The notes under the pieces: model-generated
Databases searched by the model: none
What the model was told of the DNA's origin: nothing
The model's input: only the letters and a program-made list of their open reading frames with translations
Made by a program: the position numbers and the translations under genes
Assembly: GCA_905236835.1 (NCBI GenBank)
Contig: CAJOQY010000068.1
Location: 1-12,793, forward strand
Reading direction: 5' to 3'
Source: an uncultured Oscillibacter sp.
GTDB taxonomy: Bacteria; Bacillota; Clostridia; Oscillospirales; Oscillospiraceae
Length of the DNA stretch: 12,793 bases
In this document: piece after piece, positions 10,439 through 12,793 of the stretch
Layout: the number at the start of each line of letters is the position of its first letter
Numbering within the stretch: position 1 is the first letter of the stretch

Positions 10439-11353
10439 ATGAAAAGCGCGTGGAATCGGGTGGAATTATTATCGCTGGCGGCGGTTGCGATTATATTAAT
10501 TACGCTGTCCGGGTGCGGCGGAAATCATCATCAGAAATCGCCTGTAATTCATATGGCGACAAAGCCCATGACGGAACAGCATATTATGGGCTATATGATG
10601 AAAGATTTGATTGAACAGGAGACGGATTTGTCCGTTGAGATTACGCAGGGCGTTGGCGGAGGCGTGGCGAATATTCAGCCCGCGATGGAAAAGGGCGATT
10701 TTGATTTCTACCCGGAATATACCGGCACCGGCTGGAACGCGGTATTAAAAGAAGAAAGTTTATATGATGAAAGTATGTTTGATCAATTGCAATCCGGCTA
10801 CGCGGAATTTGACATGACATGGGCCGGAATGCTGGGATTTAATAATACATTCGGAATCGCCGTGACAAAAGCGGCGGCGGAAAAGTATCATTTAAAAACT
10901 TTTTCGGATTTGGCCGCCGTATCCGGGGATTTGAAATTCGGCGCGGAATATGATTTTTTCGAGCGCGAGGACGGCTATGAGGCTTTAAAAAATACTTATG
11001 GAATGGATTTCGCCGACACGATGGATCTGGATATTGGTTTAAAATACGACGCGATCAATCAGGGCAAAATCGACGCGATGAATATATTTACCACCGACGG
11101 ACAGCTTGCCATATCGGATATTGTCGTATTAGAAGATGATAAAGGCCTGTATCCGTCGTATATGTGCGGATTTGTGGTCCGGAATGAGATATTAGAACAA
11201 TATCCGGAATTGGATAATATATTTAATATAATAACCGGATTGATTGATGACAGCGAAATGGCGGAAATGAATTATCAGGTTGAGGCGGAAGGCGTGGAGC
11301 CGGAAGAAGCCGCGCGGGATTTCTTGCGCGCGAAAGGTTTATGGCATGCCTGA
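10439..11353 (+). CDS. Osmoprotectant ABC transporter substrate-binding lipoprotein (OpuCC/OsmF-type)
   Basis: A 304-residue lipoprotein. The signal (LLSLAAVAIILITLSGC) ends in lipobox LSGC with Cys26. The mature part shows the OpuAC/OsmF fold: a first strand VIHMATKPMTEQHIM, GVGGGVANIQPAMEKGDFDF (71-90), YPEYTGTGW (91-99), LKYDAINQGKIDAMNIFTTD (201-220) and YPSYMCGFVVRNEIL (238-252). It should capture a quaternary-amine solute such as betaine, choline or carnitine outside the membrane and hand it to the permease. ATG 10439 has GGGGG (10425-10429) 9 bases upstream; ATG 10433, two codons earlier, is too close to it. Its TGA stop overlaps the start of the ATPase gene by 8 bases. Ligand identity cannot be set. 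Confidence 0.9.
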   Translation: MKSAWNRVELLSLAAVAIILITLSGCGGNHHQKSPVIHMATKPMTEQHIMGYMMKDLIEQETDLSVEITQGVGGGVANIQPAMEKGDFDFYPEYTGTGWNAVLKEESLYDESMFDQLQSGYAEFDMTWAGMLGFNNTFGIAVTKAAAEKYHLKTFSDLAAVSGDLKFGAEYDFFEREDGYEALKNTYGMDFADTMDLDIGLKYDAINQGKIDAMNIFTTDGQLAISDIVVLEDDKGLYPSYMCGFVVRNEILEQYPELDNIFNIITGLIDDSEMAEMNYQVEAEGVEPEEAARDFLRAKGLWHA

Positions 11354-12107
11354 AAAGAAAACGCGGCCTGATAATCTCGCGAACGCGATAGAATACCGGC
11401 ATATCCGGATGGATTACGACGGAAAAAATATCATCCCGGATTTGAATCTTGAGATCAAAAAAGGCGAATTTGTGACCGTGATCGGTTCGTCTGGGTGCGG
11501 CAAAACGACGATTTTAAAAATGGTCAACGCGTTAATATCGCCGACAGCCGGTGAAATTTTCGTGGATGGAAAAAATATCCGGGAATATGATTTAATCGCG
11601 TTACGGCGCAATATCGGCTACGCGATTCAGGGGAGCGTATTGTTCCCGCATATGACAGTGGAAAAAAATATCGCGTTCGTGCCGGATTTGTTAAACCAAA
11701 ACGACCGGAAACGGACAAGAGAAGCGGTCAGAAAATGGGTGAAAATCGTCGGACTGGATGAGGATATGTTGTCGCGCTATCCGAATCAATTATCGGGCGG
11801 ACAGCAACAGCGCGTCGGAATCGCGCGGGCGCTGGCGGCGTCGCCGGATTTGCTTTTAATGGATGAACCGTTCGGGGCCGTGGATGAAATCACGCGCGCG
11901 AGTTTACAGGATGAGATTTTACGGATTTATCACGAGACGGGCATTACGATTTTATTCGTCACGCATGATATAAACGAGGCGTTGAAGCTGGGGACGAAAA
12001 TACTTGTCATGGATCACGGGGAAGTCACGCAATACGCGCCGCCGGATGAAATACGCGCCAATCCCGCGAATGATTTTGTAAAAATCCTGCTTGCCCGGGC
12101 GATGTAA
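11346..12107 (+). CDS. Osmoprotectant ABC transporter ATPase without CBS domains
   Basis: A 253-residue ATPase that powers the transporter. Marks: Walker A GSSGCGKT (47-54), Q-loop Q95, signature LSGGQ (149-153), Walker B LLLMDEP (169-175), D-loop GAVD and switch His207 (FVTHD). The sequence is closest in style to OpuCA/ProV (LFPHMTVEKNIAFVP, TKILVMDHGEVTQYAPPDEI). OpuCA-type subunits usually carry two CBS domains after the core that sense ionic strength; this one ends right after the core (LLARAM), so that control is missing. ATG 11346 has AAAGG (11333-11337) 8 bases upstream and overlaps the previous gene's stop, which indicates coupled translation. No clear terminator follows. Confidence 0.92.
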   Translation: MPEKKTRPDNLANAIEYRHIRMDYDGKNIIPDLNLEIKKGEFVTVIGSSGCGKTTILKMVNALISPTAGEIFVDGKNIREYDLIALRRNIGYAIQGSVLFPHMTVEKNIAFVPDLLNQNDRKRTREAVRKWVKIVGLDEDMLSRYPNQLSGGQQQRVGIARALAASPDLLLMDEPFGAVDEITRASLQDEILRIYHETGITILFVTHDINEALKLGTKILVMDHGEVTQYAPPDEIRANPANDFVKILLARAM

Positions 12108-12230
12108 ATGATCATCATATACGCGGGATATAAAATTTTAAATCGCCGACAGGGAGAAGATTATGTTTATGTCGCCTCTCATATGAGGGGCGTGGATTGA
12201 AATTGGAAAAATTTGAAAAATCAGAAAGAC
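12108..12230. other. Leader of the sirtuin gene with CRISPR-like repeat and possible 7-codon ORF
   Basis: Between the ATPase stop and the sirtuin start lies a TATAAA (12129-12134) without a good -35, AGGGAGAAG (12151-12159) placed as a ribosome binding site before ATG 12163, the 7-codon frame MFMSPLI (12163-12186), and the CRISPR-like repeat (12171-12203) whose hairpin overlaps that frame. Transcription may come from the transporter operon or from a promoter not visible here. Confidence 0.4.
12171..12203 (+). CRISPR. Solitary type I-C-like CRISPR repeat
   Basis: This 33-base unit begins GTCGC and ends GCGTGGATTGAAAT, the hallmark ends of type I-C (Cas5d-processed) repeats. Between them CGCCTCTCAT pairs with ATGAGGGGCG, with one T·G wobble. 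No second copy is present one spacer length away on either side, and no cas gene is in the window, so this is a single repeat and not an array. It lies 28 bases before the chosen sirtuin start, on the same strand. The identification rests on recalled repeat consensus. Confidence 0.75.
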
Positions 12231-12793
12231 ATGAAAGAGCAAGATCACATGATAGAATTATTAGCGCGGGCGATTCGTGATTTTCAGGTGATTATCATCG
12301 GCGCGGGCGCGGGATTGTCCACATCCGCCGGATTTGTCTATTCCGGAGAGAGATTTGACAAATATTTTCACGATTTCGGCGAGAAATACGGATTTCAAGA
12401 TATGTATTCCGGGGGCTTTTATCCGTATCCGACGGAAGAGGAAAAATGGGCGTATTGGAGCCGTAATATTTTTGTGAATCGCTATTTAGACCCGCCAAAG
12501 CCGGTTTATCAGAATTTGCTGGATTTAATCCGGGAAAAGGATTATTTTGTATTAACAACAAATGTCGATCATTGCTTTCAAAAAGCCGGATTTGACAAGA
12601 AAAGATTATTTTACACGCAGGGGGATTATGGCTTGTTCCAATGTTCGGAGCCGTGCCGTCAGGAGACGTGGGATAATGAAAAGATTGTTCGTGAAATGAT
12701 GGAAAGGCAAAACAATACGCGTATTCCGTCGGATCTGATTCCGCGCTGTCCCAATTGCGGGAAGCCTGTCAGCATGAATCTGCGCGCGGATGA
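12231..12793 (+). CDS. Class M sirtuin (SirTM), N-terminal part, runs off window
   Basis: The visible 187 residues match SirTM, the microbial sirtuins that ADP-ribosylate a lipoyl-carrier protein (GcvH-L) as part of a redox-stress switch with a macrodomain hydrolase. Marks: IIGAGAGLSTSAGF (22-35), YSGERFDKYF, DMYSGGFYPYPTEEEKWAYWSR, TTNVDHCFQKAGFDKKRLFYTQGDYGLFQCSEPC (109-142) and PRCPNCGKPVSMNLRAD. Canonical sirtuins have a catalytic His where this has Q130 in YTQGDYG; N111 and Q130 appear to match N118 and Q137 of the known SirTM (by memory). Cys138/142/173/176 could bind zinc. The start is uncertain: ATG 12231, ATG 12249 and TTG 12213 share the frame and none has a strong ribosome site. 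The partner macrodomain and GcvH-L genes are not in this window and may lie to the right. Confidence 0.85.
   Translation, partial: MKEQDHMIELLARAIRDFQVIIIGAGAGLSTSAGFVYSGERFDKYFHDFGEKYGFQDMYSGGFYPYPTEEEKWAYWSRNIFVNRYLDPPKPVYQNLLDLIREKDYFVLTTNVDHCFQKAGFDKKRLFYTQGDYGLFQCSEPCRQETWDNEKIVREMMERQNNTRIPSDLIPRCPNCGKPVSMNLRAD

Follow-up and report, generated by a model that had tools for sequence, protein, structure and literature searches.

A single type I-C CRISPR repeat interrupts the beginning of a SirTM-type sirtuin gene in an uncultured Oscillibacter sp., and comparison with an uninterrupted relative indicates that it very probably arrived as a 35-base piece inserted into the first codons of that gene. 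On balance, we favour a stray insertion of a single repeat, with side effects on expression, over a selected control element. The window, by which we mean the whole stretch of 12,793 nucleotides that was analysed, is an entire contig (C68) of a draft genome (G000; 1.74 Mb, 363 contigs, 71% complete) and ends within the sirtuin. The initial annotation had reported a lone repeat ahead of this gene; its sequence, coordinates and strand are all correct (Table 1), and it is the sole copy in the window and the sole one found in the draft genome.

Table 1. Features at the interrupted sirtuin start, in window coordinates
Feature	Position	Strand	Basis or remark
ATPase of an ABC transporter (glycine-betaine-type operon), next gene upstream	11280..12107	+	Found at the same place in G124; the actual start probably lies within the ORF
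AGGGAG, the Shine-Dalgarno site that served the ancestral start of the sirtuin	12151..12156	+	Duplex -8.0 kcal/mol before ATG 12163; G124 counterpart -7.4
Original ATG, now opening a 7-codon ORF (MFMSPLI) with stop TGA 12184-12186 within the repeat	12163..12186	+	Homologous G124 start, ATG L036:397
35-base insertion relative to G124	12169..12203	+	Alternatives 12168-12202, 12171-12205, 12172-12206
Lone type I-C CRISPR repeat, 33 bases	12171..12203	+	Fixed ends common to arrays of 8/118 relatives
Repeat hairpin, 8 pairs and 4-base loop, followed by a handle-like tail	12173-12192	+	RNA folding
Stranded 5' coding remnant W-K-N-L-K-N-Q-K-D in the sirtuin frame	12204..12230	+	Matches L-K-N-L-K-N-N-K-N of G124
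SirTM-type sirtuin, truncated where the contig ends	12231..12793	+	Match to Pfam SIR2 at E 3.8e-4, which falls short of the curated cut-off

The repeat has 19 fixed bases, starting with GTCGC and ending with GCGTGGATTGAAAT, around 14 free ones. With up to three mismatches allowed, it occurs once in the window and in none of 200 shuffles, and a search of the draft genome for the fixed ends at the same tolerance gave four places, the only exact one being that in the window. A chance origin of the match is excluded because the expectation for 19 fixed bases in 2 x 1.74 Mb is about 1e-5 (hand calculation) and the pattern read backwards, used as a control, has no match in 394 genomes. The folding energy of the hairpin is -13.8 kcal/mol (z -3.2), a stability reached by 1 of 200 shuffles; the stem of ten pairs described initially would leave no loop, and the fold gives the shorter stem listed in Table 1. 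Against Rfam, the repeat matched only CRISPR-DR9 at E 0.47, with 17.1 bits against a cut-off of 45. The unit, with Y permitted at two places, had no exact match among the genome contigs searched or in IMG/VR, and these searches did not find a donor array.

The tail of the repeat (GCGTGGATTGAAAB, up to one mismatch) occurs at eight places in the draft genome. Among the six whose surroundings were inspected, a set that leaves out those on C5 and C185, a repeat-sized unit was seen only in the window. The other five were rejected as arrays: the places on C72 and C140 share a longer common sequence that is not CRISPR-like, and those on C13, C108 and C293 look like coding sequence. At one of the rejected places (L070, 100-150, on C140), a transporter-like gene is preceded by TGTGGATTGAAAT, or a close variant of it, repeated three times in tandem. 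The first copy sits in the sequence common to C140 and C72, and the copies are probably coding debris rather than CRISPR.

The assignment to type I-C made in the initial annotation is right. The unit has the conserved ends, a length within the range of such repeats (about 32-34 bases) and a hairpin followed by an unpaired tail, and its genome encodes type I-C Cas proteins. In its ends (GTCGC and GCGTGGATTGAAAT), its 33 bases and its G+C-rich hairpin it is like the Cas5d-processed repeats of type I-C systems; unlike them, it stands as one unit with neither spacer nor leader, within the start of a protein gene and on a contig without recognised cas genes. Several repeats with spacers behind a leader, as in an array, are not present at this locus, and, in line with the annotation, neither a second repeat nor a cas gene was recognised anywhere on the contig.

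The same fixed ends with different stems were found in 8 of 118 other relative genomes, and when the gap between the ends was allowed to vary, 7 of the 85 other genomes in the genus matched. Across the order, 41 of the 394 genomes surveyed have a match, G000 being one of them. Several of these matches accompany type I-C genes. In G037, Cas3c, Cas5c, Cas8c, Cas4c and Cas1c precede an array with the same ends, a two-repeat array in G052 has a Cas1c gene nearby, and a Cas5d match was obtained in each of G014, G032 and G051, which share the ends. Two ORFs near one array of G041 had no cas match.

The strongest evidence for insertion comes from G124, which has the best sirtuin match in the genus (protein 86-88% identical) and an ATPase neighbour that is 93% identical over the piece compared. 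Among 110 sirtuin loci, the ATPase lies directly upstream of the sirtuin only in the window and in G124; one further locus (L150) has a 39% ATPase match elsewhere. Global alignment of the window with G124 places one 35-base gap at the repeat site, containing the entire repeat, and both flanks are collinear to within 2 bases of the repeat, with no leader, spacer or trailer. Elsewhere the two loci differ by gaps of 2, 8, 1 and 8 bases between the genes and, in frame, by 9 and 6 bases in the variable N-terminus. In G124, the gene is uninterrupted and starts ATG-TTT-TTG-AAG-AAT-TTA (MFLKNL) behind a good Shine-Dalgarno site. The insertion starts right behind the second codon of the old frame, and removing 35 bases at 12168/12169 or 12171/12172 opens a frame from ATG 12163 that reads MFWKNL or MFMKNL. 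Because the frame can stay open after deletion of 32 or 38 bases as well, it is the G124 alignment, and not the frame alone, that sets the length. The empty site is represented by one genome, the sole relative with the same gene order, together with the stranded codons.

Coding sequence appears to have once run through the repeat site, because in-frame codons homologous to those of G124 stand at the junction without a start codon of their own. An insertion in the lineage of the window is a simpler account, as we see it, than a loss in G124. In the 76% draft of G124, neither the repeat nor a match to Cas5d was found, the Cas5d search being a lower bound (it missed the Cas5c of G037). The gap between repeat and gene, annotated as 28 bases, is 27 bases to ATG 12231; a repeat ahead of the gene describes the present reading frame, and judged by G124 the unit lies inside the ancestral 5' coding end. 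The inserted piece has the length of a spacer (33-35 bases in the array of G007). No target duplication is visible around the insertion in the G124 alignment, which makes off-target integration by Cas1-Cas2 an unlikely mover, and no mobile element carrying the repeat was recognised among the window ORFs, eight proteins of which were compared with Pfam and one with PADLOC.

As we reconstruct it, a type I-C repeat would have been copied into the first SirTM codons in the lineage of G000, leaving the ribosome-binding site and the original ATG in place to read the 7-codon ORF that stops within the repeat. Near the point where the repeat ends, a further in-frame TGA (12198-12200) separates the stranded codons from the old start. 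The candidate sirtuin starts that remain all have weak sites, with duplexes of -3.9 kcal/mol for TTG 12213, -0.9 for ATG 12231 and -2.1 for ATG 12249. Judging from these sites, translation of the sirtuin was probably weakened by the insertion. The protein would then be made at a lower level from the internal ATG 12249 or 12231, or by re-initiation, and its N-terminus would be slightly shortened in a poorly conserved part. Between 11900 and 12320 we found no terminator-like site, and a consensus scan for sigma-70-like sites gave no promoter-like site on the plus strand from 11900 to the repeat, so it is likely that the sirtuin is transcribed from the transporter operon. The sole plus-strand promoter-like site in 11900-12320 lies behind the repeat, at 12231-12258.

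A second sirtuin sequence bears on this point. P0001, a protein of 277 residues from another contig of 6607 bases, is 98% identical to the window sirtuin, with three differences, and its predicted start, as chosen by the gene caller, corresponds exactly to M12249. Among the best 120 of 7997 relatives, P0001 alone is without an N-terminal extension, the other 119 having 6-19 more residues; the length of the N-terminus varies among other relatives too. P0001 aligns with the solved SIR2-family protein 5a3a, which we take to be a SirTM, at E 6.7e-68 from its residue 3 onwards. The short form can thus keep the matched part, and the conserved part probably begins at about ATG 12249. The simplest reading, at which these data hint, is that the strain of P0001 carries the same interruption. 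SirTM sirtuins form a class of protein ADP-ribosylating sirtuins (PMC4518038).

The initial annotation had offered two origins for the repeat, of which the first was the last remnant of a deleted array. In this plain form the proposal fails, as the flanks are collinear with G124 to within 2 bases and no leader, spacer or trailer is left. A modified version, in which a mini-array without a leader lost all its spacers through recombination between repeats and kept one repeat, fares better and is still unlikely. Recombination between CRISPR repeats is established, and it would supply the mechanism. In four stretches of G143, from the same order, the intergenic DNA contains small type I-C arrays in decay. 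Besides G000, three genomes of the order have exactly one repeat match. Two were rejected as lone repeats: the match in G420 belongs to a normal array, the remaining repeats of which are shorter by one base, and G134 has four repeats, three of them with GTGGGTTGAAAT. The third, in G283 (L156, 2530-2562, minus strand), is about 300 bases from a contig end and outside any gene start, with no second repeat in the 2859 bases read. It sits behind an A/T-rich, leader-like stretch, which indicates that arrays can shrink to one repeat, and it looks like a parallel to a shrunken array rather than to the window insertion. In contrast to G283, the window has no such A/T-rich stretch between flank and repeat. 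Against the mini-array stand the match of the flanks to the empty site within 2 bases, with neither leader nor terminal spacer remaining, and the need for two steps where one insertion is enough.

The small type I-C arrays of the four G143 stretches and of one stretch from G242 (L157-L161) have repeats that differ and are partly decayed, and they may be informative on the spread and loss of arrays. Among the genomes with the nearest Cas5d, the array of G007 has repeats of the form GTCCC...GGGTGGATTGAAAT, and the stretches read from G070 and G006 contain no direct repeats; the donor therefore cannot be named from the repeat that accompanies the closest Cas5d.

The second proposal was that a Cas5d-type nuclease, if encoded in the genome, might cut the hairpin in the sirtuin mRNA, making the repeat a CRISPR-derived control element. 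Type I-C cas genes, named as a check in the initial annotation, are indeed present on another contig, C155 (3559 bases), with cas3 (incomplete in the stretch read), cas5 and cas8c (cut by the contig end) in a row, called Cas3c, Cas5c and Cas8c by the PADLOC models. The Cas5 matches the solved 4f3m (BH0337) at E 6.6e-83 over 228 residues and keeps the tyrosine, lysine and histidine at the places of 4f3m that we presume to be catalytic. The genome thus encodes the nuclease that the proposal called for. A full array with the same repeat, also named as a check, was not found; no CRISPR array of any kind and no match to the Cas1 or Cas7 families were recovered from the 71% draft. The Cas5d matches in G070, G007, G006 and G032 run through one TGA, which may be alignment past the gene end.

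When present, Cas5d could cleave the transcript on the 3' side of the hairpin base, at about 12192/12193; cutting of type I-C repeats leaves an 11-base tail. Such a cut would free the sirtuin message from the transporter message, with a new start at 12193. Whether this happens to the sirtuin transcript in the cell we regard as doubtful, even with stray insertion as the preferred origin. That the cut sets sirtuin output by the amount of free Cas5d, as a control element would, is a good deal less probable. In its favour are the presence of Cas5d with its presumed catalytic residues, a stable hairpin on the coding strand with an unchanged repeat tail, and the hint from P0001 that the state is common to a second strain. 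It is opposed by the disruptive look of the insertion, which orphans a start codon and its Shine-Dalgarno site, by the absence of Cas1 and Cas7 from this draft, and by the lack of conservation in relatives described below. The fuller scenario, in which a lone repeat moved as a spacer-sized piece of 35 bases into an ordinary gene and cutting by Cas5d now separates the sirtuin from both the transporter operon and the decoy start, so that sirtuin output follows CRISPR activity, strikes us as very unlikely.

An alignment of sirtuin leaders in relatives had been suggested to reveal conservation of the unit, and none was seen. A sirtuin at E 1e-20 or better is present in 36 of 86 genomes of the genus, G000 included (39 matches), and the repeat tail is absent from the upstream DNA of the 29 other genus loci read, one of which has 27 bases upstream. 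The 110 loci mentioned above comprise 30 from the genus and 80 of 592 from a wider search (the sets may overlap in genomes), and 107 of them have at least 150 bases upstream. With up to two mismatches, the tail occurs at two of the 110, the window and L096, from a Lachnospiraceae genome, where a hairpin followed by CATGGATTAAAAT lies at about 2840-2882, some 110 bases before the sirtuin. We rejected L096 as a decayed I-C repeat: it has two mismatches, and by hand estimate chance alone should give about 2-3 such matches in a set of 107 leaders. None of the 109 other loci thus has a convincing repeat upstream of its sirtuin. At least seven other genomes of the genus have a match to the Cas5d of G000, in a search that missed the diverged Cas5c of G037; in the two of these Cas5d-bearing genomes whose sirtuin locus was read (G006 and G051), the repeat is absent. 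Control through Cas5d is mechanically possible, as the initial annotation supposed, with the enzyme present, and no conservation of the unit speaks for it.

A collapsed assembly, in which an entire array was reduced to one repeat or a repeat was wrongly joined, seems highly improbable to us. The draft is fragmented into 363 contigs and yielded no array, as such an error might leave it. Both flanks, however, belong together in G124, which makes a chimeric joining of two loci unlikely; next to the first repeat of a real array one would expect a leader, and there is none; and P0001, which comes from another contig, is also without the native start.

Solitary repeats of viral genomes can act as RNA anti-CRISPRs, and RacrIC1, of type I-C, is reported to help a phage against I-C targeting (PMC10651486). 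The window repeat resembles RacrIF1 and RacrIC1 in being a single repeat without an array and of the CRISPR type of its host. Those repeats are carried by viruses, and many of them follow a promoter and have acr genes close by, unlike the window repeat in a bacterial gene. Despite the phage advantage reported there for a type I-C solitary repeat under I-C targeting, the window repeat is almost certainly not a decoy RNA tying up Cas proteins, as the ORFs around it resemble genes for housekeeping functions and transporters, with none recognised as a phage gene, and the scan for sigma-70-like sites gave no plus-strand promoter-like site between 11900 and the repeat.

CreTA, tracr-L and similar RNAs are standalone repeats sited in cas loci, with a guide that matches a promoter. 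They share with the window repeat a position outside an array and a possible regulatory role; unlike them, the window repeat is followed by sirtuin coding sequence. A search of the draft genome for the first 12 bases behind the repeat (seed only) next to TTC, the PAM used for the guide search, gave no exact place and three with one mismatch, and from these matches a guide role of the sequence behind the repeat is not indicated. The locus can also be compared with SirTM/macrodomain operons: in G124, the sirtuin is followed by a second gene, which we read as a putative macrodomain protein. It differs from them in the repeat itself, of which no convincing example was found in the other sirtuin leaders examined.

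Reviews place solitary repeat units in viruses (PMC8616872, PMC11656645), and in the open-licence literature searched we found no report of a lone repeat in the leader of a chromosomal gene. Solitary CRISPR repeats are described in viruses, and the window case concerns a chromosomal gene. If the insertion is real, a lone repeat in a genome with a matching nuclease would mean that repeats can spread singly and alter host genes, and it would allow one to ask, in a natural setting, whether the enzymes that process crRNA act on host mRNAs too. Even as a stray insertion, it would be an example, open to checking, of repeats that move without spacers.

Elsewhere in the window, an ORF of 254 residues on the plus strand (469-1233), which has no Pfam family, matches PADLOC PDC-S02, a candidate anti-phage defence model, at E 4.6e-29 over most of its length.
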